Positions 25,002-54,505 of a stretch of DNA of 64,000 nucleotides are shown here, piece after piece; the stretch's first letter is position 1, and each line of letters begins with the position of its first letter. Origin of the DNA: Candidatus Nanohalococcus occultus (lineage in GTDB: Archaea > Nanohalarchaeota > Nanosalinia > Nanosalinales > Nanosalinaceae); NCBI RefSeq assembly GCF_029207735.1, contig NZ_CP104395.1, forward strand, positions 664,692-728,691. Direction: 5' to 3'. The notes under the pieces were generated by a model. The model had not been told where the DNA came from, ran no database searches, and worked only from the letters and a program-made list of their open reading frames with translations. The position numbers and the translations under genes were made by a program.

Positions 25002-25008
25002 TATACCA

Positions 25009-29184: not shown

Positions 29185-29187
29185 TTA

Positions 29188-31260: not shown

Positions 31261-31331
31261 GTGCGTTAAGGAACTACAGTGTTCCCTGAAAAGTTTTTCT
31301 CTCCGCTTGTTTATAGGTCTTCACCAGAGGA

Positions 31332-32204: not shown

Positions 32205-32225
32205 ACCTACAGTTTCGAGAGTCTG

Positions 32226-32235
32226 GGATAAAAAG
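32226..32235 (-). promoter_or_regulatory. Possible internal promoter in the surface-protein cluster
   Basis: The minus strand reads CTTTTTATCC in a 42 bp gap, centred 27 bp before the ATG at 32204, suggesting a second transcription start for the downstream fibres. Confidence 0.35.
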
Positions 32236-32246
32236 TTCTCCAGTTT

Positions 32247-35200
32247 TTACCGCGCGTAGAAGTACGGGTTCTCGAACTCTAGTGTGTGACCTCCATCAGG
32301 AGTGAAGTCTCCTTCTCCCCAGTGTGCTATACGTCCGTTACCGTCCCTGAAGCCGAGGTGTGTTGGGATATCTCCATCATCTAAGCTCCTCCAGTCAATG
32401 TAGTCTGTCCAGGTACCTCCTGAACCGTGGTTGGAGCCTAGAACATAGTCGCCGCCGACCGAAGGACTTGGATCGGATGAAGGGAATATAGTCATACATC
32501 CACCGTAGACACAGTCATAGTCGCTTGGATGAGCGACCGCGAAGACATCTGTTATCGGCTCATCGATGTCATCCGTGTACCAGTCTCCGACGTAGTAAGT
32601 ACCGTCTTCCGTTGTATCGGAAAGTGCCTGGATCTGAGCCGGATGAATAGGATTGCCGTTAGCACTGTAATAGTCCCATACCGCAGTCTTGCCCTCATAG
32701 CTGGACATAAATGCTTTCCCTATGGACCATGTCTCGTTGTTACCTGTATTTGAGACCCATCCCTGACCGTTGCCGAAGTTGACTTCGCTTCCGGACTCCC
32801 ACATGAATGAGTTTTCTCCAAACGCCCATCCCTTATCACCGCTTACAGCACCATCCTTAGTAGTGTAAAGCCGTGTCCATCCACCTCCGTTCTCTCCCAT
32901 CTCACAGTAGACTTCGAAAGGCGAGTAACCGCCACTGCCATCGGGATCGATCCGGAAGACGCCGCTATGCGTCGAATCCTGCCTTTCTTTAATCTCCTGA
33001 CAGTCCCTTGGAACATCGTACCGCTGCCGACTGCTTGAGACACCGGCCGAACCAGAGTTCATAACATTTTTGACACCTCCGTCAGACAGCGCGTAAGGAT
33101 ATATACGCACATCATCTATCTTTCCCTCGAAAGGTAGAGAGCCGCTATCAGATATCCGTGTGCTGCTACCAGAATCTCTTACTGATACACTGACAGACTT
33201 TGAATCTTGTAATACTCCGTTCTGATATATTTTCAATGTAGAGCCATCATAAGTACCGGTTAAATGATGCCACTCATTCTGTGGGATAGTGTAACCTCTC
33301 ACTATATGGGAGTCAGAGCCATCATGAATATACATTGAACCTTGTGCATTCCCTCCATCAGCAAACAAAAGAGTATCATAAGTTCCTGCGTTAAGAATAT
33401 CTGCTCTATCAGCAGGACCTTTTCTTTTAACCCAGGCGGAAATAGAGAGCTTGTTATTGTTATCAAACTGCTCAATCCCGTCTATGCTGACATAATCATC
33501 GTTTCCATCGAATTCAAGGGCAGAACCTCTCTTACCCGCAGTAAGGTTCGCACCATATACAGTTCCATCATTATCGCCCGCAGAATCGTACGTCTTGTTG
33601 CCGTAGACAGAATCAAAGCTCCATTTGGCAGTGGGGCCGGCAGATCCATCTTTTCTGTCTCTACCGTTCGTATAAAGATTCCAGACCTCGGTTTCAGACA
33701 GGGCGCGGTCATGTATTTTAGCCTGATCAAGGCTTACTTTTCCAAACGTAGAAGCGCCTGAAATCCTATAAGAGCCGCCTAGTTTCAACCCCCTAGTAGT
33801 TGAGAAATCGTTCAAATCCGCCTTACTATCCGTATCTGCGAGCCTTCCATCAACATACAGTTTGGCTTCTTTAGCCGGAGCGTTGAAGACGCCTACAACG
33901 TGATGCCATTTCTTGTCAATCGATGTTTGTACCACTAAACCAGTTCCACTCCCATCTCTGGCACCAAACCTTATATCACCCGCATAAAGGTCAAACCCTG
34001 ATGAATACGTAGTATGTCCTTTGATCATAACCCCGCTAGTCGCATCTTCGCGTTTTATCCAGGTAGAATACGTGAAATTATCAGAGTTAGTGAAATTCAA
34101 GACCTCATCATTCGGTATGTCTAGAGAATCATCACTTCCGTCAAAACCAAGACATTTGCCAGACTTACAGTTCTCAGAACCTTTCACTTCTGGCCCGTTC
34201 ACCAGTTCTCCGTGATTAGCTTCTCCGCTTTCATCGACGGCGACTTTCCCATCCGTACCCGACGGACAGCTAACAGTATCGGAGTTTCCACAGGTTTCAA
34301 CTCGGTCAAAGGATTGGTCAAGTACAAGTCCTTCTTGAAGGCCTGTAGAAGCGGATTCTGTAGAAGAGCCTATGTTAGACTCTCCTTTACGGTAGAGCTG
34401 TTTGACTTGGGCGTTAGAAGCAGCGTAAGGATAGATTTTCACCTCATCAATTTCTCCTTTCCAACCATAATCCTGATCAAACGTACCTGAGTTCCTCCAG
34501 GCATTGTAACCTACAACAAGCTGTCTGCTCGATTTAAAATAAGGTCCAGCGAAAGAGGTTTGATCTAGTAATTCCCCGTCCTGATAGAATTTTACCGTTG
34601 AATTATCATAAGTTCCTACAACATGAGTCCATCCTCCACTAATCAGGCTACCGGATGCTTCAACGTATCCGTTTCCGTTCCCTCTACCAACTCTGAAAGA
34701 ATCAGGTCTTAGACCAAATCCTTCATCCGGAGCGGTTATCTCATCGGAGACTAATGAGTCATCATTGTAGTTGCCTTCTGTCTTATACCAAGCCGAAACC
34801 GTGAGACGGGCCGGTTTGTCACCGACACTGTCAAGGCCAGGTTCAACTCTATCATCAAAACCGTCAAACTCAAGCGCTTTCCCTATCACACCATCGACTC
34901 TTTGTGGACCCACAGTTTCATCCGGCTGAAAAATCCCTGTATTACCTTCGCCAGAGTGATCGTAGGCCTTATCACCTCCATTACGGTTGAACCGCATATC
35001 CAGAACCGCTCCCCTAGATTCAATATTTTCCGCCTGTTGAATTACCTCCTCCTGGGTCAGCGGCTGGTTGAAGACTTTGAACTCATCGATCCGTCCCTCC
35101 CAGTGATTACTTGTTATATCGTCTGTGCCTTCAGTGTTACCTCCTAGGACAACAGGACGGGCGTTATGGCTCCAGCCGGAGTTGTAGCTGAAGTTTTGTT

Positions 35201-36440
35201 CCAGCTGGCCGTCAGTGTAAAGTTCTATTTCCGAGGCCGAAGAGTTAAACACTAGAGACGTATGATGCCACTCGGAGTCATCCATGTTGAACTGGTAGCT
35301 ATTTCCGCCGTCATAATACAGGCTATAACTGTCTTCTCCTTCATTTCTAAGGCAGAACCATTCGTTACAGTCCTGTGTTATTATCCTGTCTCCGGCTGAA
35401 ACACCTTCACCTTCCTTAAACCAAAACATAAACGTCCTAGACACCGAATGATCGCTCCAGACCGTATCAAGATCGATTCCTGTACCTCCTGCTCCGTCAA
35501 AGCTGGCACAGCGACCAATCTGACAGTTAACCATGGTTTTCTGTGAGATACCATTTTGTTTTCTACCGTGATTTTCCTGGCCCGAGGTATCGAGGACATG
35601 GGTCGAGTTCTGATGCTGGAAGCTAAGATCCATTATATTTGATTCGCTGTCTTTTCCCTCTGAGCCAATACGCCAAGATCCTCGGTTGTAAAGCGTCTTT
35701 ATCTCGGAATCAGAGAGCGGATTTGAGTAAATCCGTGCCTGATCAATTTTACCATCAATATATCCTCCAGAACCTCCCTCTCCGAACTGTAGGTTTTTAG
35801 AGTTACTCGCAAGATCAATGTCGCCTACTGAAGTGGTATCTCCAAGTTTTCCGTCCCTGAAAACAGTCATATCTCCAGTTTGCGGGTCGTATCGCATAAC
35901 TAGATGCGTCCATCTTCTATGCGGAATATTGTCTATATTTGCCCGGTAGTAATTTCCGGACTGATCGCCCAACGTGGGATCGAATCTGAACTTATCTCCG
36001 GTAACACTGTCCATAATCATAGCGTACGGATCGTTTGCGAATGCTCCTTTACTCATTGCTATTGACCAGTCTCCTACATTGTCTTGACGCGAGTAGAACC
36101 AGAACGAGACCGTTATGCCTTCAGTCTGTCCTTCAAGAGACGGATCATCTGGGACTGTTACCTGATCTCCGTTCTGTGAAAAATCCATTGCTTTGCCGCT
36201 GACTCCTTCAGACCAGCCGGCTCCATTAATATCCCCGTCATTACCGCCAGCACTATCATAGACTGTATTTCCAGTCCCGGTATCAAACCGGTATTCGGCT
36301 ACGAGATCGCTGGATGAGCCTGCGGAAAGTATCGGACCGTTTCCTGACTGTGCTGCGACTCCTGCAATACCTAGAATTAATGTGAGAGCTATTATCTCCG
36401 TTGAACGTTTCTCGGCTTTCTCAATTACTTTTTCCTTCAC
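32247..36440 (-). CDS. Giant five-LamG adhesin with a fibrinogen-like C-terminus
   Basis: 1,397 residues, starting GTG with overlap of the previous stop. Signal helix at about 15-30. Five LamG/concanavalin jelly rolls run to about residue 1150; each starts like LVAEYRFDTGTGN and ends like IDDVRIYPYALSDGGV. The fourth carries the CPSG-DG-VAVDESG-NHGEL linker shared with two paralogues. Residues about 1165-1397 resemble a fibrinogen-like domain: PRDCQEIKERQDSTHSGVFRI, then PFEVYCEMGENGGGWTRLY with the two cysteines, and later a DYDCVYGGC loop. Such domains bind glycans, which suggests surface sugar binding. Overlaps the 394-residue gene by 4 bp. Confidence 0.88.
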   Translation of the reverse strand: MKEKVIEKAEKRSTEIIALTLILGIAGVAAQSGNGPILSAGSSSDLVAEYRFDTGTGNTVYDSAGGNDGDINGAGWSEGVSGKAMDFSQNGDQVTVPDDPSLEGQTEGITVSFWFYSRQDNVGDWSIAMSKGAFANDPYAMIMDSVTGDKFRFDPTLGDQSGNYYRANIDNIPHRRWTHLVMRYDPQTGDMTVFRDGKLGDTTSVGDIDLASNSKNLQFGEGGSGGYIDGKIDQARIYSNPLSDSEIKTLYNRGSWRIGSEGKDSESNIMDLSFQHQNSTHVLDTSGQENHGRKQNGISQKTMVNCQIGRCASFDGAGGTGIDLDTVWSDHSVSRTFMFWFKEGEGVSAGDRIITQDCNEWFCLRNEGEDSYSLYYDGGNSYQFNMDDSEWHHTSLVFNSSASEIELYTDGQLEQNFSYNSGWSHNARPVVLGGNTEGTDDITSNHWEGRIDEFKVFNQPLTQEEVIQQAENIESRGAVLDMRFNRNGGDKAYDHSGEGNTGIFQPDETVGPQRVDGVIGKALEFDGFDDRVEPGLDSVGDKPARLTVSAWYKTEGNYNDDSLVSDEITAPDEGFGLRPDSFRVGRGNGNGYVEASGSLISGGWTHVVGTYDNSTVKFYQDGELLDQTSFAGPYFKSSRQLVVGYNAWRNSGTFDQDYGWKGEIDEVKIYPYAASNAQVKQLYRKGESNIGSSTESASTGLQEGLVLDQSFDRVETCGNSDTVSCPSGTDGKVAVDESGEANHGELVNGPEVKGSENCKSGKCLGFDGSDDSLDIPNDEVLNFTNSDNFTYSTWIKREDATSGVMIKGHTTYSSGFDLYAGDIRFGARDGSGTGLVVQTSIDKKWHHVVGVFNAPAKEAKLYVDGRLADTDSKADLNDFSTTRGLKLGGSYRISGASTFGKVSLDQAKIHDRALSETEVWNLYTNGRDRKDGSAGPTAKWSFDSVYGNKTYDSAGDNDGTVYGANLTAGKRGSALEFDGNDDYVSIDGIEQFDNNNKLSISAWVKRKGPADRADILNAGTYDTLLFADGGNAQGSMYIHDGSDSHIVRGYTIPQNEWHHLTGTYDGSTLKIYQNGVLQDSKSVSVSVRDSGSSTRISDSGSLPFEGKIDDVRIYPYALSDGGVKNVMNSGSAGVSSSRQRYDVPRDCQEIKERQDSTHSGVFRIDPDGSGGYSPFEVYCEMGENGGGWTRLYTTKDGAVSGDKGWAFGENSFMWESGSEVNFGNGQGWVSNTGNNETWSIGKAFMSSYEGKTAVWDYYSANGNPIHPAQIQALSDTTEDGTYYVGDWYTDDIDEPITDVFAVAHPSDYDCVYGGCMTIFPSSDPSPSVGGDYVLGSNHGSGGTWTDYIDWRSLDDGDIPTHLGFRDGNGRIAHWGEGDFTPDGGHTLEFENPYFYAR

Positions 36441-37621
36441 GATCTCACCTTCTCAATTATCCTGGCCGCTAGATTTGTTTTCCAGGATATAAATCCTGTC
36501 AATGCTAAGGTCAGTGCTGAGAGAACTGCGCGTATGCCATCGAGCGCTGACCTCTTCTGAGACACTGTTCCAACATTGTAGACCGAGTAAAAGACTTTAC
36601 TCCCGTCTGTGTAGACAGTGTGAATGTTTCCGGACGGATCGACTTCTATGTCGTTGTAACGTCCGATGTCCTCTCCTTCCCGGAGTGTTTTATTCTGCCA
36701 TCGGTTATCTGTTCTGGTCGAGTAGACAATCCCTGTCCCTGAATCATGGTAGAGGATGTGTGGCTGTTCGTCGACTTCGAGAGACATCCTGGTGAAAAAT
36801 GCGTTGGCGAACTCCTTGTTTTCATCCGGTGACTTGTAAACAACGGTATCTGATGAGGCATTGAGGTAAAGTAGATGTCTGCCGCAGTCTTCTCCGGTCT
36901 CAAGATCTAGATCTGACCGGGTTCTGAAGCTTGTGTTCTCTGAGTTCCATTCGCCGTCGTACTGGCCGAACCGTAGGTCTTCGGTGTCTCTTGAGCGGTA
37001 AGCTGCGAGCAAGTTACCGCCGCACGTATCTGTTTCAGTAAACCAGCCTTCTCCTTCCTCAAGGCTCTGTCTGTCCCACTGGCCGCCTGTTCTTTCCGCA
37101 AGCTTCAGTCCCTGTGAAGGCGAATGATACAGTATCACCGGCCGGCCTTCGAGGAATGAAAGCGAGTTATACATGCCTACGGACACCCCTCCTGTACCGA
37201 CACTGTCAACTTCCGTGGAACTCCACTGACCGACCTGTCTCTGTGCGAAAAGCAGTTTCTCATCGCCGAGATCACCGTCCTGATACGCAACGAACGGACG
37301 GCCGTCGTCCGACTCAACTGACAGATACATCCCTACCTCCGAACGGTTATCGATCACCTGTCTACGCCAGTCAGCATCTCCGCCAACAAAAGGCAGTTGC
37401 GTGGAAAAACTGCGCTCCTCGAATACAAGACCGGAGTCCTTAGACTGTATATACGCGATGCCTACAGAATCACTGTAGGAATCGATTTCAACGAACTTTC
37501 CATACGTGTTGTTGGCAATCATCTGTTCATTCCAGCCTGGCTGTTCGACACTGTACGTAAAGCTTCCTGCTGCCAGTAAAAAGCTTACAGCTGCTGCGGT
37601 TCCAAGTATTCTGTATTTCAT
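36437..37621 (-). CDS. Secreted beta-propeller-like protein with a C-terminal anchor
   Basis: 394 residues with a signal at about 1-22 and a C-terminal helix near 368-385 (ALTLALTGFISWKT). The body has repeated blades of about 50 residues with G-K-F-V-E-I-D and YNDIEVDPSGNIHTVYTDG-like motifs and W-ending strands (GGQWDRQSLEEG, DNRWQNKTLREG), similar to sialidase-type or BNR-like propellers. No catalytic residues are recognised. It lies between two giants with 4-6 bp spacing on each side, so it is part of the same unit. Confidence 0.78.
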   Translation of the reverse strand: MKYRILGTAAAVSFLLAAGSFTYSVEQPGWNEQMIANNTYGKFVEIDSYSDSVGIAYIQSKDSGLVFEERSFSTQLPFVGGDADWRRQVIDNRSEVGMYLSVESDDGRPFVAYQDGDLGDEKLLFAQRQVGQWSSTEVDSVGTGGVSVGMYNSLSFLEGRPVILYHSPSQGLKLAERTGGQWDRQSLEEGEGWFTETDTCGGNLLAAYRSRDTEDLRFGQYDGEWNSENTSFRTRSDLDLETGEDCGRHLLYLNASSDTVVYKSPDENKEFANAFFTRMSLEVDEQPHILYHDSGTGIVYSTRTDNRWQNKTLREGEDIGRYNDIEVDPSGNIHTVYTDGSKVFYSVYNVGTVSQKRSALDGIRAVLSALTLALTGFISWKTNLAARIIEKVRS

Positions 37622-37627
37622 ATTCCT

Positions 37628-40600
37628 CTAACTCATCGAGATAAGCATCTTGATCTTTGAATCCTCCATCGCTGGCTGCATTGCCTTACCGATGACCGAT
37701 CCCTCACAGTTTTCCATATCTCCGCATTTCATTGCTTTTCCATTCTCTGAAGATGTTGTCAGCATATCTCCAGGCATGATGTTCCCGTTCTCGACTGTTA
37801 CCTTGACCGGAACCGTTCCCGTCATAGCTACAGGCACGCCACCTCTTTCCTTAGCCATTATCATCGCTGGATCGGTCGAGACGACCCCTGCGACATCCGT
37901 ATCATGTTTTCCGTCCGTTGCATCAATGCTCATGTTACCGGAGATCTGGACAACCGTTCCCGGCTCAAGCCGGGATTCATTCTGTATTTTCTCCGCAACG
38001 TCTGCTCCGGCCCCTACAAAGTCTCCGCCGACCTCCACATCGTCTTGGACGTAGATATCGTTGCCATCAACTTTCGAAGTACCTGTAGAGTAGGAACCAG
38101 CGATCAAGTTATCTGCCTGAACAATGTTGCCGTTTTTGATCTCATTACCTCTCAGGTTGATGTCCCCGGCTCCGGACGGATCGAAGTCAATGTTGCCGGA
38201 TCCAATGTTCAGTATCTTGTTACTGTTCATATCCAAGTCACCGCTCATCGTATCTCCGGCCTCATCTACGTACTCTCCCGAGGTTTCCCCTGTCACCGAG
38301 GTACATGTCCCATCGCCATCAAGGTACTGTCCGGTGTTACACTCCGTGGAACCAACGGACAGCTGGCCGTTTACATTTAGATTGCCGTTGGGAATTTGAA
38401 CGTCTCCTCCTTCATCGCCTCGAATTATCTCCTGACCCGCGTTTTTATCGTACCATCTTATGTAGCCACTTCCCGAACCGGAGGTCTCGAGAGACACGCC
38501 GTCTCCGTTTTGCTTGAACAGAATCTGTCTGTTGTCAGCAGAACTGGTTTCGATCTTACCGCCATCAGCCAACCGTAAGTTCCCGTTCGGAATATCCACG
38601 TTGTTGCTGCCATCAAAGCTTACTGTGCTTGTACCAGAACCATCCTGTAAATCATCCACCCCTGTAATTGAGTTTTCATTAACATCGAGATTTCCATTCG
38701 TGGTCACTCCTCCGAAGGTGAAGCTATCTGCGTTGTTGATAACGCCGTTACCCATAGTGTTGGCGCTTATGCTTCCTGCCGTCAATGAGTTGTCTTCGAT
38801 CTCCGAGTCATCCAAGGTATTCTGAGCGATCTCGCTCTCATCAACTGAACCTGCCTCCAAGTTAGCATTCTCAACCGTTCCGCCCTGCATATCCAGGTCT
38901 CCGACGATACTGGCGTTAGCATCTATTCCTACCGTTCCGGTTGGATCGAGAACTATGTCGCTCGGGGAGCCACTGGATGTTGTCAGGTACATGTTAGAGT
39001 AAGAGTCAATCGTGTTGGTGCTTGTACCTGTTAGATCAAGTCCGTTTGCCACACTCAACGGACCGGAGCTTTCAACACTCAGTGGCTGGCTGAGTGTTAT
39101 GCCTGTATCGGAGAACTCAGCGATCTGGCTGCCGGAAGTCGAGACATTCAAATTGCCGACGTTATCAATACTGTTGTAGTTCATGTCCAGGCTGTTGCCG
39201 CCAGCGCTGTTGCCCTGTGAAAGTACGTTTGCCAAGTCCTGGTTATCGGTATCCGTATCTGTATCAGTCTCACAGTTTCCGTTCCCGTTTACGAACTCGT
39301 TGCCACCACAGCCGTTTAACCCGGAGATACCTGTGATGCTGCCGTCAGTATGGAGCTTGAGGGATGCTGGATCGTCGGTACCGTGGATCGCAACGTAGTC
39401 ACGGAATGCGTTATCATCACTAGGTGCCAGATGTAAGACACCTGTATTGCCCTGATCGCCGTTAGTCTCATGAGTTATGTACCCAGGATCGTTGCTACCT
39501 CCAGCCGCGCTGAAACTGATAGTATTCTGTTTGGTGTTCTGACTGAACGGTCCTGCGTTGATCGGCGACTCTGTAGGCCCGTTAATAGTGACATCTCCAT
39601 TTTGAGTCGTGACACCTCCAAACGTGAAGCTGGCACTGTTTTCTATCTCGGAGTTATCAACCGTGTTATCCTGTATCTCGCTGTCACCTACTGATCCTGC
39701 GGCCAAGGAAACACTGGTCAAAGAGTTATCTTCAATCTCCGAGTCATCCAACGTGTTCTGAGCGATCTCACTCTCATCAACACTTCCGGCCTCGAGATTC
39801 ACGTTCTGAAGCGTGTTACTGTTCATGTTGAGATCGCCGCTCGGAATATTAACGTCGCCGTTCGGATCAGCGACCAAAGCATTTGTTCCGCCCCCGAACG
39901 TGCCGTTATCGACTGCTATAGCGACCTGCTTGCCGTCACCCGACTGAATCAAGGTAGCGCCGTTGCCTATAGAATCCGTGTATCCTACAGTGGAACCAAA
40001 CCCGCTGTCACCCCGGAAACGCACGTAGTGTTTGGCGTGATCGCCAGTTCCGAAGACTGCGGCCTCTCCCTGGTTGTTTACGTTGATCTGTCCGTTAGGT
40101 ACTACAATATTATTCGAACCATCCAGTCGAATGGTATCTATTCCCGAACCGTCCTGTATGCTGTCTACGTTACGTAACTGGTTTTCATTTAGGTCAATAT
40201 TGTTGCTGCCGGCACTATTGCCCTGGGATAGAACATTCGCCAAGTCCTGTGTGTCCGTATCAGTATCTGTCACACAGTTTCCATTTCCGTTTACGAATTC
40301 ATTGGCGCCACAGTTCTGTAGGCCGCCGATATCCATCAAGGAATTGCCGTTCAGATCAAGATTGCCGTTAGGCACATCGACTTCCTGTGTTCCCTCGTTA
40401 AACCGCATTATATCTATGTTTCCCGCAGTACTGCCGTCCTCGACAGATACAACGTGTGTTCCATCGCCCTGAGTCCGCAGGTTCAGGTCTGTATCGCCGT
40501 TCTTCGGCCCTACGATACTGCCCACTTCCCGCAAGCCTATATCTATGCCGCTTCCGTAAATATCGCCATCCATCTCAATGCCGTTAACATTCTGTAGGTC

Positions 40601-43905: not shown

Positions 43906-45581
43906 CCGAGAGTCACCACCACATTCCCGTTACTCTGGACGTCCATCGAGGAACCTGAATCATCACTGATCTCCCCTCCATCTGTGTTAACATCCAATCG
44001 GCCCTGAGTTGTGACCTCTCCGGTATCGCTTATTTGCGTGTTACCTGCTGATGCTCCAGTACCTATCTCCATGTAGGTGGTTCCGGAGTCAGCGAACTCA
44101 ATGCTGTCATCCGAGTCAACCACTAGGTCACCGTCATCGTAGATATTGTTCGATCCTTTTCCGCTGATCATGTCTAATCGGCCGTTCAGACTGACTCTGT
44201 TGAAAGTGAAATCACCGCTGTTCTGTATCTCCGAGTTATCCACCGTGTTATCCGCAATCTCGTTATCATCAATACTCCCGGACGCAACAGCATACTGGCT
44301 TCCAGACAACGTAATAGCATTACCAGGATTGTCTAAATCAACTCCATCGACTTGACCAGGGTTGTTTATGTCGTTGGCACCGGCATCAATATTCCCGCTG
44401 TCCAGAACCAGATCATCGTCCACATAGTATACTCTTGAACCGTTACGTCGTACTTCGTACTCCCCGGGCGCCTCAACGTTAATCTGTATATCTTCATCGT
44501 CGTTACCGCCGAAGTTGAGGTTGCTGCCGCCGACACCTTCAATCCGGTTACCGTTCATCTGAAGATTCCCATTCGGAATCTCGACATTTCCCCCTCTTTT
44601 CAGGCGGAGTACTTCTCCGGACGCGCCATCGTCTTCGAACGTTAAAGCATCTGTACTGCCGGAATCCGGGTACACGTTCCATTTAGTCGAACCGGATCTA
44701 CGAAGCTGAAGCCAGTTGCTGTCCGTACTGGAGGACTCCGAGACCAACGCCCCGTCGGAAATACGGACATCCCCGTTCGGGACGTCCACGTTTCCATCCC
44801 GATTGACCCTTAGCTCCTCCTGACCGTTTACAGAATCGTATATAAGGAACCGGCTGGCGCTGAAATCAATTGAGTTCTCATTAGTATTCTCCGAGGTCAT
44901 CTCGATGTTATTTTCCACGAAAATATCGTTTACATTCGTTATATCCTGACTGTTCAAATCGATGTTATTGCTTCCGGCAGAGTTCCCCTGAGAAAGTACA
45001 TCCGCCAGGTCCTGGTTGTCGGTATCGGTATCTGTATCGATTTCACATTCTCCGTTGCCGTTTATGAATTCGTTGGCTCCACAGTCCTGTAGGCCGCCGA
45101 TGTCGGTGATGTTGTTACCTCCCATATCGAGCGTGGAGGTTGTACCTACTACTCCGCTTGGATCCAGCACTATATCGCTGGGCGAACCCGAGGTGGAAAG
45201 ATAGAACGTCGAGTACGAATCAATTGTATTCGAACCGGTTCCTGTAAGATCGATGCCGTTCTGTACGCTTAAAGGACCGGATGATTCTACGGATAACGGT
45301 CGGTAAAGCGAAATACCCGAGTCCGTGAAGTTTGCGATCCCTGTAATATTCAGTCCGCCGTTTGTAATCTTGGTATCGCCGTTTTCAGAGACTTCAAAGT
45401 CCAGATCGTTGTCCCCGTAGTACTGTAAGGCATTTGAAGAGTTAATGTCTATAGCTGAAGCTGTAGAAACCAAAGACACTGCTGTCGCTGCCAAAACAAG
45501 ATTCCGGATTACTCGCTTACTCAAATCAGGATACCCTTCAGAACGGTTTTTTCGACGCTGATTTAAACGGTTTTGCGACAT
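43902..45581 (-). CDS. Secreted fibre protein, 559 residues
   Basis: The start chosen is ATG at 45581, one base after the upstream stop; the frame extends to 45617 but that adds a non-signal stretch overlapping the previous gene. A signal helix (RNLVLAATAVSLVSTASA) precedes fibre units: RPLSVESSGPLSVQNGIDLTG, one GNGECE/DTDTDTD module, QDLADVLSQGNSAGSNN, and IADNTVDNSEIQNSG. The C-terminus is Gly/Ser/Asp rich (TDGGEISDDSGSS) with no cysteines. Near-identical peptide units in neighbours suggest gene conversion. Confidence 0.83.
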   Translation of the reverse strand: MSQNRLNQRRKNRSEGYPDLSKRVIRNLVLAATAVSLVSTASAIDINSSNALQYYGDNDLDFEVSENGDTKITNGGLNITGIANFTDSGISLYRPLSVESSGPLSVQNGIDLTGTGSNTIDSYSTFYLSTSGSPSDIVLDPSGVVGTTSTLDMGGNNITDIGGLQDCGANEFINGNGECEIDTDTDTDNQDLADVLSQGNSAGSNNIDLNSQDITNVNDIFVENNIEMTSENTNENSIDFSASRFLIYDSVNGQEELRVNRDGNVDVPNGDVRISDGALVSESSSTDSNWLQLRRSGSTKWNVYPDSGSTDALTFEDDGASGEVLRLKRGGNVEIPNGNLQMNGNRIEGVGGSNLNFGGNDDEDIQINVEAPGEYEVRRNGSRVYYVDDDLVLDSGNIDAGANDINNPGQVDGVDLDNPGNAITLSGSQYAVASGSIDDNEIADNTVDNSEIQNSGDFTFNRVSLNGRLDMISGKGSNNIYDDGDLVVDSDDSIEFADSGTTYMEIGTGASAGNTQISDTGEVTTQGRLDVNTDGGEISDDSGSSMDVQSNGNVVVTLG

Positions 45582-45582
45582 C

Positions 45583-48500
45583 TCAGCCACCGGCACGCAC
45601 CCCGTCTGTAAGCGCATCGTTCCTGACCTGTTGTGGGGTCAGTGCGACAGGATAGAACTTCAAACTGTCAAGGCTTCCCTGAAGTGAGTTCGTGCCATCA
45701 GAGTTCGCAGCACCTATCCATAAAGGAATATCTGTCGGAGTGTAAGCCCAGCCTGTTTCCTGATTCGTCTTCTGACCATCAAAGTAAGTTGTGACCGTAC
45801 CGTCCTCGATAGTCACCGTAAAGCTATGCCATTCATCGAGAGCATTGTCGGAAGCATTAGCTATGATTATACGATTCTCCCAGCCGTCCGGATCGGCAAA
45901 ATAGAATTTGAGGATTTTATCATTCTCTGGATTATCCGCCGGATTGCCTCTCTGAACCGAGTATCCTCCAGTACTGTATCCTCCTTTTTCCAGCACTCTC
46001 TTCCAGTTTTCCACCGAAGTATCCTGTAGCCTGATGTGGCCGGTGATAGTGAACTCTCCGGTATTGGAAACTCGGAGACTGTCCTGATGCGGTACCTCTA
46101 TCACATCGTTTTCCCCGTCGAATTTCAGCGAAGACCTACTGTCCTGTAGCTGATATACCGGATCGCCCATGTTCGGGATCTCTCCATTGTTTTGTTCGAC
46201 AGAGTCCCAGAATCTCTGTTTGCCATCGCCTGAATACCATGTCAGCAGGTTGTTCCACGCCTCATCGGCATTTGGATAATCAGAAGGCGTAAAAACAGCA
46301 TTACTTCCAGGATGGAAGTAGTATCCTCTTCCAACTGATTCAATTCCTACGAACTTACTGTCCGAAGTATCTCCGCTCGTGCTATTGTATGCCTGTAAAA
46401 CATTCACGTCAAAGCCGTTAGCCCATCTATAATTTTGAGACGTAGACGAGATAGTCCCCGGAGCAGCAGGTAAAACAGAGTTGTTAACACTGTAATCATA
46501 GGAAGTGCTGCTCCAGCAGCTATAACCAAGATCAGAACATCTCTCCTGACCGCCTCTGGAGTATAGGCCATCTCCACTGTACTGAGAGCAGCTATTCTGA
46601 TAACTTTCCCAGCTGTCACCGTCCCATGCCTTCGGCTTCCAAAGGCCTGCTCCCCATGTACCCACCCAGAGACCTCCATCACTCATGAACTCTTTCATCT
46701 CGCTGTAGACATCGTGTTCGCTGCCTTCACCGTTTACAGCGTTACAAAAGTCTTCAGACTTGTCAAAGGCCGGATAACGCTCACCATCTGGGAACACTAT
46801 GATCTCACATGAACGCCAGCCATCCTGTGTTATATCTCCGACTTGGACGTACCTGGTTCTCCAACCCTCTGAGTCCAAAGTATTTTTGAGCGAAGTGGCT
46901 GACGGCCCCTGCCATCCGCCATCACCAAACGAACCCTGATCTAAAATACACACACGAGGAGCGGCATCGAACCTGTAGCTGGCGACAGGGCCAGGCATAC
47001 TAACGGAACGATCTCTTTCATCTGTGTAAAGACTCCAGATTTCTTTATCTGAAAGTGAGCGGTTATAGATTTTGAACTCATCGATTTTACCATCCAAGTG
47101 TTCGTCATAATTTGGCTGGGATCCGATGTACAGCAGTTCATTGTTAGCCAACAAGCCCTCGGCCACGGATTTGGAGGCAACCTGTTTGCCGTTTAGGAAA
47201 AGACTGAGGTTCTGTCCGGAGTTAACCCGTCCAACTACGTGTGTCCATTCTCCAAGCGGTACATCTCCGCCTCTAATTATAGTGTTGTTTTCCGCTACCA
47301 AGAGCCATGCCTCTCCGTCAGTTTCTATCCTCATCCGGTAGGCGTTGTTACCGCCTTTAGCCAGTATGTTGCCGCTACTTGTACCGTAGGAATCGAGTTT
47401 GACCCATGAGGAAAAAGTTGCTTCATCGGAGAGATCCAGGCTCGAACTGTCCGAGACTTCAATATGATCTCCGGAGCCGTCAAAGCCAGCGCAGCCACCT
47501 TTCAAGCATCTACTGGCTTTCTGCTCGACCGTAGTATCTATTAATTCGCCGTGATTCGTGTTTCCGCTTTCATCAATCGCTATCTCTCCCGTCATACCGG
47601 AAGGACAGGTTACTGTATCTTCTTGGCCGCAGGTCTCGATGTTATCAAAGTTTTGATCGATTACAAGACCTTTTTCCAGGTCTTTCTGAGCGTTAGCGCC
47701 TACAACCGATTTCCTGTTTGAATAAGCTTCTTTTATCCTGTTTTGACCTAAAGCAAACGGCAGGATCTTTACCTCATCGATCTTACCGGTAAAGTAGTTG
47801 CCAGCGTTGTAACGTCCAATGTATGTCTTTGAGTTTGAAGGTACGTCTTGTAGGGCGCCGGAGTTCAGAAGCTCGCCGTCCATGTATACCTTCCCTGTCG
47901 ATCCGTCGTATGTAACCACTATGTTGTGCCAGCTGCCGTCGTGGAAGTCTGCTTTAGCGGAGAAGACAGATGAACCCCAGGTGTTCGATACTTCGATATC
48001 TCCGCCGTTAAGGTACAGTACATGCTGGCCGTTATCGCCGCTGACAACATTTCCTGCGCTGGAATCCGTTGTCTTCACCCATACGGATTTAGTGTAACTT
48101 GTCTTTGGCACCACATCAGAGCCGAGATCGATATACCTGTCCGAGCCATCAAAGTTCAACGCGTTTCCGCTGATGCCTTCCGCCCATTTAGGAGCGGACG
48201 AGCTACCAGTGATAACTCCGTGGAACCCGTTACCGGAAAGATCAACCACGCGGTCACCGCCTCCCGAATCAAACCGCATGTCAACAACGGCTCCTTGAGA
48301 TTCGATCCCTGCTGTCTCTATTATTTCTGAGTGCGTTAAGGCTCTATCGAAGAACTTGAAATCATCTATCCTGCCGTTGAAGTACTCATTATTGTTCGTT
48401 ACTCCCAAATTTACATCCTGTACGGACATATCGACGGAGCCGGGCATATCTTTTGCTTCTATCACACCATCAACGAGTATTCGGCGGTGCGTTCCATTGT

Positions 48501-50265
48501 ACCAAACCGCTACATGATGCCAGTCTCCATCGTTTACCTGTAAACCCGAAGTTGAAAGATCGTTACTCCAGAAATAATGACGTATATCCGAGCAATCATT
48601 CGAGGTTCTGAACGCATTTACGTTATTGCCCGAACCCCAGTTACCGTATCCGAAAATCCCTCCGCTCGTAGAACAGGACTCAGGAACATTTATCCAGGCC
48701 GAAGCAGTAAATGAATCATCGTTTTGAGCTAGATCCGCGGTCTCCGGTAAGTCAATGTAGTCATCACTGCCCTCAAAGCTGTAACAGCGTCCGTTCCGAC
48801 AACTGTTCGCATACTCTTGGACAGCCCCGCTCGGCAGACCGTGATTCTCTTTTCCGCTTGTATCATAGACGTGTGTAGTATTTTTCTCATCGAAACCGAT
48901 ATCCATGACTTTCGAGGACTTCTGTTCGATAGATATATCATCGATGTACCATCGGTTTCCAGGTCCGACACCGAATTTACAGATGCTGTATCCCGTTCCA
49001 AAGTTATCACTGTATGTATCGGAGGCGCCGGAGTTATCCTGCGACCAAGAAAAGTTTACCTGACCCGTACGAGTATCCAAATCCATTTTAACGTGTGTCC
49101 ACTGTTCGTAGGCTGCGCCAGGGTTGTTGAGGTATGCCTCCGAGCCTAGAACATCGGCTTCGAACTCAGGATTCTCCGTGCCGATCCCTGCGAGGTTTGT
49201 CCCATCACATGCTTGGACCCAGAAATTTCCATCGTAGTTCGGCACGGATTTCTCCCAGTACTCTCCTTCAACCGTTATCTCACCTCTCAAAGGTTTATCG
49301 AAAGTTTTAATCATCCCATCCGGATAGAGATCTCCCGAACCTTCCTGTAAAAATCCTTTTGCGCCGGACTCGCCTCTGCCAGCGATTTCACAGGTACGTG
49401 ACTGGCATTCCGAGCTGTATGACCAGCCATTCTCTCCATCTATCGAGCTTCCTGCTCCGTAGTTTTCAAAGCCTTCGCTGAAAGCATAGTTTATAGAATC
49501 AGATCCTCCCATAGACCATGAGCCTCTGTTGTACAAAGTACGTATCTCCGAGATCGAGAGGTTACGGGAATAGATTTTCAGTTTATCGATCTCTCCTTTG
49601 AGAGCGCCGTTATCAGATGCGCCGTTGTATCCAACGCCCAAGTAGTTTAGATCGATGTTTCCGGAGGCTGAATCGGTACCGACGTTTTCTCCATCGATGT
49701 AGAAGTATGGTTTACCGTTCCCGTCCATTGCGATCGCTACGTGTATCCAGCCGTTCTTGTTGAACCGGAAGTTATCCGAGCGTTTCTGGCTGCCGCTGTT
49801 GTCCTCGTAACGTAGCTGAGCCATACCGTTGCCTTGATCGGCGAATGTGACGTATCCATCCCATGATCCTGCGGCGTTCGCGGAGAAAAGACCCGGCGAC
49901 ATCTCATGGCCCGGGCTTCCAAGATCTTCCGAGTTAACCCAGACCGAGACAGTCGTATTTGGCTCAAGTCTAAGATTATTACCTGTCAGATCGAGATTAT
50001 CGTCCGAGCCGTCAAAGCTTAACGCTTTACCCTCTAAACCTTCAGTCCACGAGGCACCGTCAACCATAATGTCTCCGCCGCCAGCATAGTTTCTAACCGA
50101 GTCACCGGCACCCTTATCGAAACGGTACTCGGCTACAAGCTCGGATTCAGAACCCGAGGTCAAAAATGACTCCGAAGCCAAAGCCACTCCGGCAGCTAGA
50201 ACCAGTAAAACAACCAATACGGTGGCCAGCTCTGTTTTACGGAGAGAAAAACTTATTTTATCCAT
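45583..50265 (-). CDS. Giant five-LamG adhesin with an amidotransferase-like domain
   Basis: 1,560 residues. Signal helix about 12-30. LamG at about 40-250; a different jelly roll (GITVEGEYWEKSV-like region) at 260-450; LamG at 450-660, 665-880 and 890-1110. Residues about 1115-1345 look like a class I glutamine-amidotransferase/BPL-N fold: RVCILDQGSFGD, RSCEIIVFPDGERYPAF, EFMSDGGLWVGTWGAGLW, with eight Cys nearby, but no sure nucleophile. A last LamG spans 1360-1560. The CPSG-GEIAIDESG-NHGEL linker is shared with the other two giants. It overlaps the next upstream gene by 8 bp. Confidence 0.87.
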   Translation of the reverse strand: MDKISFSLRKTELATVLVVLLVLAAGVALASESFLTSGSESELVAEYRFDKGAGDSVRNYAGGGDIMVDGASWTEGLEGKALSFDGSDDNLDLTGNNLRLEPNTTVSVWVNSEDLGSPGHEMSPGLFSANAAGSWDGYVTFADQGNGMAQLRYEDNSGSQKRSDNFRFNKNGWIHVAIAMDGNGKPYFYIDGENVGTDSASGNIDLNYLGVGYNGASDNGALKGEIDKLKIYSRNLSISEIRTLYNRGSWSMGGSDSINYAFSEGFENYGAGSSIDGENGWSYSSECQSRTCEIAGRGESGAKGFLQEGSGDLYPDGMIKTFDKPLRGEITVEGEYWEKSVPNYDGNFWVQACDGTNLAGIGTENPEFEADVLGSEAYLNNPGAAYEQWTHVKMDLDTRTGQVNFSWSQDNSGASDTYSDNFGTGYSICKFGVGPGNRWYIDDISIEQKSSKVMDIGFDEKNTTHVYDTSGKENHGLPSGAVQEYANSCRNGRCYSFEGSDDYIDLPETADLAQNDDSFTASAWINVPESCSTSGGIFGYGNWGSGNNVNAFRTSNDCSDIRHYFWSNDLSTSGLQVNDGDWHHVAVWYNGTHRRILVDGVIEAKDMPGSVDMSVQDVNLGVTNNNEYFNGRIDDFKFFDRALTHSEIIETAGIESQGAVVDMRFDSGGGDRVVDLSGNGFHGVITGSSSAPKWAEGISGNALNFDGSDRYIDLGSDVVPKTSYTKSVWVKTTDSSAGNVVSGDNGQHVLYLNGGDIEVSNTWGSSVFSAKADFHDGSWHNIVVTYDGSTGKVYMDGELLNSGALQDVPSNSKTYIGRYNAGNYFTGKIDEVKILPFALGQNRIKEAYSNRKSVVGANAQKDLEKGLVIDQNFDNIETCGQEDTVTCPSGMTGEIAIDESGNTNHGELIDTTVEQKASRCLKGGCAGFDGSGDHIEVSDSSSLDLSDEATFSSWVKLDSYGTSSGNILAKGGNNAYRMRIETDGEAWLLVAENNTIIRGGDVPLGEWTHVVGRVNSGQNLSLFLNGKQVASKSVAEGLLANNELLYIGSQPNYDEHLDGKIDEFKIYNRSLSDKEIWSLYTDERDRSVSMPGPVASYRFDAAPRVCILDQGSFGDGGWQGPSATSLKNTLDSEGWRTRYVQVGDITQDGWRSCEIIVFPDGERYPAFDKSEDFCNAVNGEGSEHDVYSEMKEFMSDGGLWVGTWGAGLWKPKAWDGDSWESYQNSCSQYSGDGLYSRGGQERCSDLGYSCWSSTSYDYSVNNSVLPAAPGTISSTSQNYRWANGFDVNVLQAYNSTSGDTSDSKFVGIESVGRGYYFHPGSNAVFTPSDYPNADEAWNNLLTWYSGDGKQRFWDSVEQNNGEIPNMGDPVYQLQDSRSSLKFDGENDVIEVPHQDSLRVSNTGEFTITGHIRLQDTSVENWKRVLEKGGYSTGGYSVQRGNPADNPENDKILKFYFADPDGWENRIIIANASDNALDEWHSFTVTIEDGTVTTYFDGQKTNQETGWAYTPTDIPLWIGAANSDGTNSLQGSLDSLKFYPVALTPQQVRNDALTDGVRAGG

Positions 50266-53200
50266 TTACAGATACCCCGCCGTTGTTCATAACGGTTTGA
50301 ATCTGTTCGCGGCCGAGAGCGTAAGGATAGATTCTGACATCATCAATAGTTCCGTTAAAGTAGGCCTGCGGATTCTGGTTGTTGTAGACCATTGCTCCGA
50401 TATAAACATTACCTGATGTGTCTCTGCTTATCAGACCTGTTGAACTGTCTTCAGCCACGAGTCGACCGTCAAGATAAAGTTTCAAACTGTTTTCTGGCTG
50501 GTTTAGCACGAAAGCTCCGTTATGCCATTTACCTGGCTCTACGTCACCTCCGTCAAGCGTGTAGTCCTGTACACCATCGATGTTCTCACTGTAATATTCG
50601 AGTTCCGAGTCCCTTACCATCATCCCCCAGTCACCGTTACCTGCACCCCACTGTTTTTCCAAGATTCTCTGAGTATTAGATGACGAAGGCGTTTTGAACC
50701 ACGTCGAGGCTGTTATCGTAGCATCCGGGCCGCCGCTGAGCGTAGAGGAATCCGGTATTCGGACGTAATCATCAACGCCGTCAAACTCAAGTGCCTTGCC
50801 TCTTTCAGTATCCACATACCGCGGGAAGTTTCCATTGGAATAAGTCAGCAGCCCTTTTTCCGCGGCGAACCATCCGACATCTTCATTGTTATGTCCATTA
50901 CAGCTATCTCCGTTTTCGGCTTCACAGTACCGGACTTCTGCGCCCGATGTATCAACGTTTCTAACCTCATCTATCAGCAATCCCTGAGCGCCGTTCACAG
51001 ATAAAGTCGTTGCCGTGACTACAGGTGTCTCGGAGAAAGCAGTTGAGAACGACTGTGGCTCCCAGTTAGAGTTTCCAACAACCGTGCCTGTGGAGCCAAC
51101 TTCGAAATGCTGTTCGAAAGGAACGTTCCCGGGTTCAACGGCAACCCATCCAACCTCCTCGAAAGGATGGTCCTCACATCCATTCAAAGAGTTCTGATAA
51201 CAGATACCGGCAGTGAAACTAGAGTTCGAATAAGAAGTTACACGGGCCTCAACAGGATTGTTTCCGTTATCAGAGTTAACATTGGCCATAACTACCGGCG
51301 CAGACGAAAAACTTTCCGAATAAGAAACCGTGTTAGTATTAAAATCCAGGTTCCCGTCAATCTCGAAGCTCCCTGCCTCAATACCCGGTATATCTTCAGT
51401 CGCATTAGCATTAATCACCATGTAACCGACTCTTTCCGTTCCATGAGTGTCACATCCTTCCGCCTGCCCGGCCTCCGACTCACATACACGCATCTCCGCC
51501 CGATTAGACCGGACGTTTTTGGCTTCAAAGGAAAGAGCAGGTTCTCCGTTATGAGTGTTGGTAGTACCTACAACCACAGGATCAGCGTAGCTTCTCTCAA
51601 ACCTAACCGTCTTCCATTCTCCGTCACTGGTATTGAAGGTTCCTGCCTCACCGAGAAGATTCAAATCACCGCTATTGCCTTCACCGGAAACATCTCTTAG
51701 AGGGGAGGACTCAGTCTGTACAGGATAATACGCTGCCGGACCTGCCATCCTGCCAGCCGAATGATCTCTTCCCTTAGTGTAAAGACTCCAGACCTCTTGA
51801 TTTGAAAGAGAGCGGTTGTATATTCTGAATTCATCTACCGGGCTGTCCCAATGAGAACCTGCCTCAGGACGAGCTCCGATAGCGAGACTGGAGTTTGTAT
51901 TACCTATCGTGCCAACACTCGCAGCGTTAACAAGTTCGCCGTTTCTATAGCCATAGGCAGTATCGTTCACAAAATGGTATACAAAATGCGTCCACTCATC
52001 AGGAGTATAACTTATTCCTACGGCGCCTTCCCATGACCCATCATCTGCTCTACGCTCATAGCTCAATGTGTTCGCATTACTGGCTCTAAGGACACTCCAG
52101 CCTGCGCGATCAGAGTCCTCAGTCGATACAAGCCGGTTATAGTTTCCGCTGTAGCTTTCCGGTTTCGACCAGAAAGAAACCGTGTAGTTAGGAGTTCCGT
52201 TGAAACCAAGATTTCCATCCATAACGACCTTATCATCTCCCTCAAAACCAAGACATTTACTGACTTTACAGCTTCCAGCTCCTCTTTCAACCGGATCACT
52301 CACGATCTCCCCGTGATTCGCTCTTCCGCTTTCATCGACGGCGACCTCACCGTTCATACCCGACGGACAGCTAACAGTATCAGACCCTCCACAGGTCTCC
52401 ACATGGTCGAAGGTCTGGGAGAGAACCAAGCCTTTCTGAAGCCCAGTAGAGCTTGAACCAGAGGAAGAGCCAACACGAGACTTGCCCTGTTCGTACAGCC
52501 GATCAATCTTAGATTTAGAAATGGCATAGGGGTACATCCGAACATCTTCCAATAAACCATCCAGCCAATAAGTAGTATTTTGATAACCCAGTAAAAATCG
52601 CGATGAACCCTCATCTAACTTACCTGATAATTCCTTTGAGAACTCCTCATTACCATCTACAAACAGTTTCAGATGATTGCCATCATACCTAACTACAAAA
52701 TGCGCCCATCTGTTCTTTATGCTGGGAAAATTCGGCGTATGACGGCTTTCATTTCCTTCTATAACAAGATCAATTAGAGCCTCATCTGATTTAAGATATA
52801 ACCTGTTATTTTCAACACCATTCAGACCAGAGTATATTCCTGCCCAATCGCCCGGATCCGTTCCGTACCTTACTCCATCTCTAAAATAGATCCAAAAAGA
52901 CAAAGAATACCCTGTTTCTAAATTAGTGTAAGGCTCTTCTACCTCAACCATATTACTTCCCTTATACCCATCAAATTCCAACGCATTCCCTGTCAAACCG
53001 TCGACCCAGCTAGGACCAGCAGATTCATTCGGCTGAAGTGTACCGTGGTTGTCTCTCTCTGAGTAGTCGTAGACTTTATCGCCTCCGTTTTGGTCAAATC
53101 GGAGGTCGAGAACAGTACTAAGGTCATGCAAGCCCTGTGTTTCTTCGATTATTTCCCGTTGGGATAGGCCGCGGTTGAAGATTTTGACTTGGTCGATTTC

Positions 53201-54505
53201 ACCTTCAAAATGATGGCTTTCTCCATCATTACATTGAGCAGCTATACAGAAGTCATACGAGTAACCAGCACTTAAGTCGCCGGATTCAACTAATTTGCCA
53301 TCAACGTATAATCTTCCTTCATCTGTCCTAGTTACACCTGTAATGTGGTGCCATTCTCCTTCTGTGACATTATGAGTCAGTAAAGGATTATTTGTATCCA
53401 TGTAACCATTTCTGCCCATTACAGCGATTTCTCCGTCTACGTATTTTAGGCCCGATCCCCAGTCTTCCCAATGAGATCCTCCCGAATCAAATCTGCCGGC
53501 TATGGCCGAATCCTGACTGCCAACATCCGTCTTAATCCATGCCATAATAGTTACCGGATTTGAAGAATCGTTCCGAGAATCATCTGAAGGATACTCCGGA
53601 ACCTGAATCTCTAGATAATCATCATTCCCGTCAAAGCTGTGGCACCGACCTAGTTTACAGTTTAAAGCAGGCTCCTGTGTCACGCCGCCCATTTTGATTC
53701 CATGGTTGTTCTGTCCTGAGGTATCGAAAACGTGTGTGGCGTTTTCCTCCTGGAAGCTGATATCTAGAATCTGAGATGGCTCTTCAGAGACACCGTCGTT
53801 TCCTACTCGCCAGGATCCCTGGTTGTAAAGTGTTTTCACATAAGACCGATTCAATGCCTGTGTGTATACTTTCACAGCATCCAGGGAGGAGGTTGTCCCG
53901 GAGCCTAACGTTATCTGATTGGATTGGAATCCTGGCCATTCGGTGTGTTCTCCTATAAGTTCTCCGTTCTTGTAGGTTCTTCTGATACCGCGGGAAGATG
54001 ATAGTACAAGTGTGTAGTGGTTCCAGCCGTTTTCTACGGAGGTCTGAGGCGCATCGTAATTATCGCCGTTCTGCCTTATGACCATATGTATATTGCCGTT
54101 AGCGTATTCCGGAGTTATCCTGCCGTTACTGCCGTCAATATTTACGAAGTCACTCCAGTTGTCGGTCGTACCGTCCTCACGCATCCAGAAGCTTAGTGTA
54201 ATTTCCGAGGTATCGACGTCAAGAGATCCTGTAGCAGAGCTGCTACCATCAAAACTGAGAGCCTTTCCTTCAACTCCACTCGTCCAGTCCGCTCCGTTGA
54301 CCGCTAAATCGTTGTCGCCAGCGGCATCTACAACCGTATCTCCAGCACCCTTATCGAACCGGTATTCGGCGGCTAGCTGGCCGGATTCAGAGGAGCTGAA
54401 AAATGATGTAGCTGAAATACTGCCTGCGACGGCAACCGCTACAACTAGTAAGAATACAGCCGTAAACGCTCTATGTTCTACCGCTTGCTGAATATTTTCC
54501 CGCAT
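50258..54505 (-). CDS. Giant five-LamG adhesin with three H-type-lectin-like repeats
   Basis: 1,415 residues with a signal helix at about 14-33. Four LamG domains reach about residue 930, then three tandem repeats (about 935-1190) with a shared pattern: F-ending strand, PVV-x-x-T/N, E-A-x-V-R/S and a D/E-VGW-x-A/V-x-E closing strand (HGTERVGYMVI, FEEVGWVAVEP, NEDVGWFAAEK), each with two Cys. They resemble H-type lectin domains. A fifth LamG ends DDVRIYPYALG. A weak TATA-like TTCTTAACTA about 25 bp upstream may be the start of the 30 kb unit. Confidence 0.87.
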   Translation of the reverse strand: MRENIQQAVEHRAFTAVFLLVVAVAVAGSISATSFFSSSESGQLAAEYRFDKGAGDTVVDAAGDNDLAVNGADWTSGVEGKALSFDGSSSATGSLDVDTSEITLSFWMREDGTTDNWSDFVNIDGSNGRITPEYANGNIHMVIRQNGDNYDAPQTSVENGWNHYTLVLSSSRGIRRTYKNGELIGEHTEWPGFQSNQITLGSGTTSSLDAVKVYTQALNRSYVKTLYNQGSWRVGNDGVSEEPSQILDISFQEENATHVFDTSGQNNHGIKMGGVTQEPALNCKLGRCHSFDGNDDYLEIQVPEYPSDDSRNDSSNPVTIMAWIKTDVGSQDSAIAGRFDSGGSHWEDWGSGLKYVDGEIAVMGRNGYMDTNNPLLTHNVTEGEWHHITGVTRTDEGRLYVDGKLVESGDLSAGYSYDFCIAAQCNDGESHHFEGEIDQVKIFNRGLSQREIIEETQGLHDLSTVLDLRFDQNGGDKVYDYSERDNHGTLQPNESAGPSWVDGLTGNALEFDGYKGSNMVEVEEPYTNLETGYSLSFWIYFRDGVRYGTDPGDWAGIYSGLNGVENNRLYLKSDEALIDLVIEGNESRHTPNFPSIKNRWAHFVVRYDGNHLKLFVDGNEEFSKELSGKLDEGSSRFLLGYQNTTYWLDGLLEDVRMYPYAISKSKIDRLYEQGKSRVGSSSGSSSTGLQKGLVLSQTFDHVETCGGSDTVSCPSGMNGEVAVDESGRANHGEIVSDPVERGAGSCKVSKCLGFEGDDKVVMDGNLGFNGTPNYTVSFWSKPESYSGNYNRLVSTEDSDRAGWSVLRASNANTLSYERRADDGSWEGAVGISYTPDEWTHFVYHFVNDTAYGYRNGELVNAASVGTIGNTNSSLAIGARPEAGSHWDSPVDEFRIYNRSLSNQEVWSLYTKGRDHSAGRMAGPAAYYPVQTESSPLRDVSGEGNSGDLNLLGEAGTFNTSDGEWKTVRFERSYADPVVVGTTNTHNGEPALSFEAKNVRSNRAEMRVCESEAGQAEGCDTHGTERVGYMVINANATEDIPGIEAGSFEIDGNLDFNTNTVSYSESFSSAPVVMANVNSDNGNNPVEARVTSYSNSSFTAGICYQNSLNGCEDHPFEEVGWVAVEPGNVPFEQHFEVGSTGTVVGNSNWEPQSFSTAFSETPVVTATTLSVNGAQGLLIDEVRNVDTSGAEVRYCEAENGDSCNGHNNEDVGWFAAEKGLLTYSNGNFPRYVDTERGKALEFDGVDDYVRIPDSSTLSGGPDATITASTWFKTPSSSNTQRILEKQWGAGNGDWGMMVRDSELEYYSENIDGVQDYTLDGGDVEPGKWHNGAFVLNQPENSLKLYLDGRLVAEDSSTGLISRDTSGNVYIGAMVYNNQNPQAYFNGTIDDVRIYPYALGREQIQTVMNNGGVSVNG

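Follow-up and report, generated by a model that had tools for sequence, protein, structure and literature searches.

Position-specific edges, discordant cores and nested modules in the giant LamG proteins of Candidatus Nanohalococcus occultus

Background

VlsE and MSP2/P44 are mosaic surface antigens that are diversified by segmental gene conversion, and diversity-generating retroelements that act on surface lectins focus variation on the lectin-type ligand face. Here we describe three giant proteins with five LamG domains each, encoded by genes that we term A, B and C, in a 64,000-nucleotide (nt) stretch of Candidatus Nanohalococcus occultus SVXNc (contig NZ_CP104395.1, positions 664,692 to 728,691; hereafter the window). 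Their sequences point to a paralogous adhesin array in which an inherited LamG framework carries exchangeable binding cores and captured modules, a reading that we hold to be rather probable. The giants resemble VlsE and MSP2/P44 in having a conserved framework around a variable, apparently exchangeable part. They differ in that no silent cassette archive was seen in the genome and in that exchange looks old and appears to have crossed lineages; unlike for those antigens, we know of no immune pressure on the giants. With the targets of diversity-generating retroelements the giants would share a concentration of variation on a lectin-type ligand face; in contrast to those targets, they vary over 118-145 residues and not at scattered sites.

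SVXNc is a nanohaloarchaeon that was seen attached to Haloferax lucentense, a host that supports growth of both SVXNc and BNXNv (PMC10266531). The main text of that report counts as many as five LamG domains in the LamG proteins SVXNc_0801, SVXNc_0806 and SVXNc_0807 and proposes host recognition as the role of the SVXNc LamG proteins. What is already known therefore includes the genes, the number of their LamG domains and, in general terms, their role; the extra modules and the split between edge and core described below were not met with in its passages on these proteins, and the terms fibrinogen, H-type lectin, amidotransferase, duplicat- and recombin- are absent from the main text. In open-licence papers, searched by title and the start of the abstract, neither edge/core exchange nor nesting of modules was found to be described for the LamG proteins of nanohaloarchaea.

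The same main text describes SPEARE giants of the SVXNc_0300 type, for which host contact has been proposed and which have about 75 Ig-like domains, a transmembrane segment and a VirB4/TraG-like ATPase (PMC10266531). The products of genes A, B and C are comparable in size, in their surface location and in the proposed part in contact with the host, and a fibrinogen-like match, given below, also lies in an 8592-aa frame of another nanohaloarchaeon. Pfam detected neither Ig-like domains nor a VirB4/TraG ATPase in them, and they do not fit the SPEARE description. The adhesin-like proteins of gut methanogens, as presented in the portion of PMC11532034 considered here, are similar in being archaeal multi-domain adhesin families with complex architectures.

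Results

Three giants share a five-LamG frame

The following open reading frames were assigned with Pfam support:
50258..54505, minus strand: gene A, five-LamG giant of 1415 amino acids (aa)
45583..50265, minus strand: gene B, five-LamG giant of 1560 aa
32247..36440, minus strand: gene C, five-LamG giant of 1397 aa

From gene order, genes A, B and C are probably SVXNc_0807, SVXNc_0806 and SVXNc_0801, respectively. The original prediction, made from the letters of the window, had placed three giants at 32247, 45583 and 50258 with five LamG domains in each and a shared CPSG linker in the fourth; all of this was confirmed. All three frames lie on the minus strand, and Pfam predicted five stretches of Laminin_G_3 (PF13385) per protein, with the gathering score exceeded by all 15 units. 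The whole genome holds 17 LamG matches, 15 of them within the three giants. One hydrophobic segment over threshold is found in each giant, close to the N-terminus. The CPSG...DESG...NHGE linker within LamG4 is present in all three giants (CPSGTDGKVAVDESGEANHGEL, CPSGMTGEIAIDESGNTNHGEL, CPSGMNGEVAVDESGRANHGEI), at these positions:
52358..52369, minus strand: CPSG of the LamG4 linker in gene A (aa 713-716), in the conserved N-edge of LamG4
47607, minus strand: start of the LamG4 linker in gene B
34268, minus strand: start of the LamG4 linker in gene C

A per-domain phylogeny of the 15 LamG units, run as set beforehand with domain boundaries set by eye, gave five positional groups with 4 changes, the minimum, a value reached by 0 of 200 shuffles; support was strong for LamG2 and LamG4 and weak for LamG3 and LamG5. 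Since the LamGs group by position, the three genes were not assembled independently. The frame also occurs elsewhere. Genome G020 encodes a bare five-LamG homologue of 1136 aa that has no extra module, and G007 encodes a protein with the same frame (L048:9449-14068) in which a complete LamG is nested in the CPSG-type linker of LamG4 and LamG5 carries an insert of about 195 residues at the same place as that of gene B. With the units of G007 and G020 added, the tree required 5 changes (minimum 4), so that the five-LamG frame is shared and older than this genome. Duplication of the frame is supported by these sequences, as is domain capture, the latter because of the bare homologue in G020.

LamG1 to LamG4 weakly unite genes A, B and C (81/86), and the alternative in which gene C pairs with G007 has a p-AU of 0.174, which does not reject it; LamG5 joins gene C with G007 and rejects a clade of the three genes (p-AU 0.011). 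Because these trees disagree, the duplication in SVXNc is not necessarily recent, nor necessarily confined to this genome. A recent duplication within SVXNc, followed by capture of one module per gene to yield three binding specificities, would explain the shared order of five LamGs, the differing modules and the bare frame in G020. We nevertheless consider it very unlikely, given that the paralogs are just 21-40% identical per LamG, that LamG5 rejects the three-gene clade, and that, as set out below, the cores are not co-inherited and gene B has two extra regions.

Edges and cores of the LamGs carry different signals

Each LamG was split at FDG/xDDY and before GxIDxxKIY into an N-edge, a core and a C-edge. 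The N-edge comprises the first ~45-67 residues (strand 1, DxSGxxNHG and GxALxFDG), the C-edge the last ~22-31 residues (GxIDxxKIYxRALSxxEI) and the core the 118-145 residues between them. Comparisons were carried out on 25 LamGs from genes A, B and C, G007 and G020, with the nested LamG of G007 left out. The best pairwise match fell at the same array position for 22 of the 25 N-edges and 22 of the 25 C-edges (0 of 2000 permutations as high), and for 6 of the 25 cores, where chance predicts 5 and 1190 of 2000 permutations were as high. For LamG1 to LamG4 of the three giants alone, same-position best matches numbered 12/12 for N-edges, 12/12 for C-edges and 1/12 for cores. The edge tree required 4 changes, the minimum; the core tree required 15 (shuffled mean 15.9, with 74 of 200 shuffles as low).

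Along the alignment, the same-position excess per block of 10 columns was +0.09 to +0.26 in columns 1-50, lay within 0.02 of zero in columns 51-190 and was +0.16 thereafter, and the least-squares break in the positional signal was located at LEF/DG. When columns were matched for conservation, the core excess was -0.001 to +0.013, and in the three bins of lower conservation the edge excess reached +0.18 to +0.26; at a between-position identity of 0.20-0.35, the values were +0.261 for edges (15 columns) and -0.001 for cores (28 columns). Positional signal is thus found only in the edges, which makes duplication followed by divergence of whole LamGs an incomplete account. Where genes A, B and C have the same residue (LamG1 to LamG4), the codon was also the same in 162/348 instances in N-edges (0.39 expected) and in 93/275 instances in cores (0.36 expected), so that homogenisation of the edges in their DNA is slight at best.

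Two alternatives bear on this pattern. That the three arrays were put together independently, out of one shared pool of LamG domains, would fit the cores if these were taken alone; it is barely credible given that the edges keep the five-position order in five proteins from three genomes, that the whole-domain tree lies one change above its minimum (5 against 4) and that the edge trees contradict it. The other alternative is that whole LamGs were inherited by duplication and then evolved unequally, the edges being held by position-specific contacts between domains and the cores saturated by rapid diversifying substitution, with no general core exchange. Edges are structurally plausible as contact regions, and the SVXNc cores are about equally distant from each other, as at saturation. 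However, core columns that are as conserved as edge columns lack the same-position excess, and the signal falls at one break instead.

The core of LamG2 in gene A is foreign

53213..53626, minus strand: foreign core of LamG2 in gene A (aa 294-431), assigned from identity to a first-LamG core of G008

G008 is another nanohaloarchaeon. The LamG2 core of gene A is identical at 83/140 positions to the first-LamG core of its protein L049:6297-9302; the other 399 core pairs compared have a mean identity of 27% and a maximum of 41%. The N-edge of the same LamG2 is identical at 28/49 and 30/50 positions to LamG2 of genes B and C, respectively, and at 7/24 positions to the G008 protein, whose own first-LamG N-edge groups with those of its G008 paralogs. 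The C-edge matches the first LamG of that G008 protein at 9/20 positions. The switch falls between the 25-residue windows that flank FDG/NDDY. By sequence, this core is clearly foreign. Its DNA is identical to the G008 core at 253/414 positions, which means that the swap was not recent. For unequal evolution of whole LamGs, a core matching that of another frame and another position, with a switch at the same boundary, is hard to accommodate, and together with the column-wise results leads us to judge that alternative unlikely. Between the G008 paralogs b6 and b8, the LamG1 core is identical at 106/145 positions and the LamG2 core at 31/123.

Residues 377-452 of gene A (53150-53377, minus strand), which lie mostly in the foreign core, are 44% identical over 76 residues to Synechococcus phage S-H9-2 by tblastn, in two records of the same phage. 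A tblastn search of plasmids yielded LamG matches of about 23-27% among the matches listed; the phage and plasmid matches to the giants are all partial. No related locus was found for gene B in genome contigs or for gene A in viral contigs.

Extra modules lie mostly within or behind the last LamG

The extra regions of the giants are as follows:
50831..51649, minus strand: H-lectin-like insert of three repeats in LamG5 of gene A, aa 953-1225 (end about 1226), from Pfam and alignment
46228..46959, minus strand: insert of ~245 residues in LamG5 of gene B, aa 1103-1346, with weak similarity to BPL_N (GATase-like), from Pfam and flanks
48919..49497, minus strand: further extra region in gene B, lying between LamG1 and LamG2 (aa 257-449), from domain boundaries set by eye
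32250..33032, minus strand: fibrinogen-like module behind LamG5 of gene C, aa 1137-1397, from Pfam and PDB sequence matches

The gene A insert is preceded by DVSGEGNSGDL and followed by GKALEFDG, and the gene B insert lies between the first strand GPVASYRFD (aa 1092) and RFWDSVEQNNGEI (after aa 1347, with the motif DSVEQNNGEI). Because LamG5 motifs flank both inserts on both sides, both are placed inside LamG5, and not, as had been predicted for gene B, before it. In gene C, LamG5 is uninterrupted and the fibrinogen-like module is appended behind it.

Three H-type-lectin-like repeats had been predicted in gene A, and they were found. The excised insert matched H_lectin (PF09458) with an E-value of 1.3e-5 and 25.6 bits (cut-off 24) in two Pfam stretches, and three repeats were recognised by alignment with a triplet in genome G019; in the whole gene A protein the match reached only 18.4 bits (cut-off 24). 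No H-lectin match to the insert was found among PDB sequences at E <= 1. The G019 triplet occurs in a protein that has a VWA domain and no LamG match. Of the gene A repeats, the first has the first G019 repeat as its nearest relative (41%) and the third has the third (38%); the trees support this modestly, and repeat 2 is ambiguous. Since repeats 1 and 3 match their counterparts, the triplet probably moved as one unit.

The fibrinogen-like module predicted at the C-terminus of gene C was likewise recovered, at partial length. Fibrinogen_C (PF00147) matched the whole protein with an E-value of 4.1e-8 and 33.7 bits (cut-off 22) over model positions 2-67 of 221, and the excised module with 2.4e-9 and 37.8 bits over positions 2-68 of 221; PDB sequences such as angiopoietin-related protein 4 matched at 4.3e-7. 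The match does not extend to the C-terminal half of the model that bears the ligand and calcium sites, and on this sequence evidence the module is fibrinogen-like and not a member of the family. A short fibrinogen-like match (48%, E 1.8e-6) was also observed in an 8592-aa open frame of a nanohaloarchaeon (G002:C1:434287-434418, locus L070).

The amidotransferase-like character that the original prediction gave to gene B was not confirmed. BPL_N (PF09825) was the best Pfam match of the LamG5 insert, at an E-value of 0.12 and 11.7 bits, below the gathering score of 24.2, and the insert had no relative but itself, either among 28 genomes of the phylum or among 297 relatives; an amidotransferase identity is unsupported. 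The giants do carry different modules, as predicted, though not exactly one each, since gene B has its second region at aa 257-449, for which a Pfam search returned no match.

Nested inserts also occur in G008. Among eight three-LamG paralogs taken from the G008 loci retrieved, the last LamG is split by an insert in six and uninterrupted in two, and these last LamGs form one clade (support 100/99). This count does not take in the four- and five-LamG proteins L049:14053-16647 and L073:5704-8889, the L071 and L072 proteins, or others that include an 8891-aa frame. The insert types include Gly_rich_2, DUF2341, IgGFc_binding and a Fibrinogen_C-like module; this last is akin to the gene C module, with 25/79 identical residues and an E-value of 6e-10 when just these two were compared. 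The G008 inserts lie at about LamG model positions 80-125, unlike the insert sites in SVXNc. In nine split LamGs, the part N-terminal to the insert, picked by eye, outscored 1000/1000 shuffles in eight cases and 999/1000 in the ninth, gene A. In one further G008 protein, L071:5057-7528, the first LamG is interrupted by an insert that weakly matches ILEI (E 0.0015), so that inserts usually, but not always, occupy the last LamG.

For the predicted history of duplication followed by domain capture, then, both steps are supported, the first through the 15-unit tree and the second through the bare homologue. Co-inheritance of whole LamGs would be an incomplete account, since the positional signal is confined to edges; the captured modules, moreover, are mostly nested in the terminal LamG.

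Operon and neighbouring genes

23784..54505, minus strand: apparent single transcription unit of 11 genes, with junctions of -35 to +71 nt, from gene spacing

Besides the three giants, this unit encodes trimeric-adhesin-like proteins and some small proteins that are secreted or located in the membrane. According to the main text of PMC10266531, three of the LamG genes share an operon with 0798 and with 0803, the latter a trimeric-autotransporter-like adhesin; the 11 closely spaced minus-strand genes are consistent with that operon. Trimeric-adhesin or tail-fibre-like proteins are encoded at 37628-42706, 43902-45617, 42697-43905, 29188-31260 and 25009-29184 (all minus strand), with repeated segments resembling GLQNCGxNEFVNGNGNCExDTDTDT; the frame at 37628-42706 agrees in length with SVXNc_0803 as given in that main text. 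The last gene of the unit (23784-25001, minus strand) has a weak twin-arginine signal (E 0.013) and a glycine-rich body, and tatC lies just past it (21156-21845, minus strand). A further LamG protein is encoded close to the operon at 59688-61304 on the plus strand; its LamG region and the initial LamG of G008 L071:7525-9264 are identical at 100/212 positions, a further instance of closely matching LamGs in SVXNc and G008.

Discussion

We infer that the three giants are paralogous adhesins of a host-attached nanohaloarchaeon, secreted or membrane-anchored and made from one operon, in which two layers would have different histories. The framework layer would consist of the LamG edges, specific to their position in the array and inherited by gene duplication. 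The variable layer would consist of the LamG cores together with the modules placed in or after the terminal LamG. In LamG/ConA folds, the core is expected to hold the ligand face. Recombination where edge and core meet would have exchanged cores on one occasion at the least, and probably on many, and modules (the H-lectin triplet, fibrinogen-like, glycine-rich, DUF2341, IgGFc-binding and others) would have been captured mostly inside the last LamG. Edges would hold the contacts between domains, and conserved edge DNA would allow homologous exchange. The outcome would be several adhesins that share one geometry but differ in the faces with which they bind glycans or glycoproteins on the host surface, and selection would favour variety in host-surface binding.

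Several observations weigh against this reading. Core similarity between the giants reaches a maximum of 0.156; no core pair in SVXNc is close, so nothing points to recent shuffling within the genome. A clear donor of a core from another frame was found in a single case. The LamG1 and LamG2 cores of G008 keep some positional signal, with 12/16 best matches at the same position (chance about half; LamG3 was left out, its core being mostly interrupted), a residue that unequal evolution of whole LamGs would predict. Position-specific constraints on edges, such as domain-domain contacts, combined with saturation of free core sites could also erase the core signal. AlphaFold models of LamG5 in genes B and A had mean pLDDT values of 50.0 and 54.6, with the inserts mostly below 50, so the nesting of the inserts is read from the amino acid sequence.

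A more far-reaching possibility, which we entertain tentatively, is a framework-and-cassette system in which cores and unrelated domains are swapped between genes and symbiont lineages at FDG/xDDY and IDxxKIY, the edges keeping the geometry, much as in antibodies, so that changing host surfaces could be tracked. No archive of broken LamG cassettes was found in the genome, where all 17 LamG matches lie in open frames without stops, and a search for reverse transcriptase (RVT_1, E <= 0.001) found none. On this evidence neither a dedicated variation machine nor a diversity-generating retroelement is supported; occasional exchange between genes and lineages is.

Conclusions

The giants bear on how symbionts of the DPANN group recognise particular hosts. 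The phylogenies of whole domains in LamG arrays can mix two histories. If cores and modules are indeed exchangeable on a conserved frame, host range would become readable and could be tested module by module in cultured pairs of symbiont and host.

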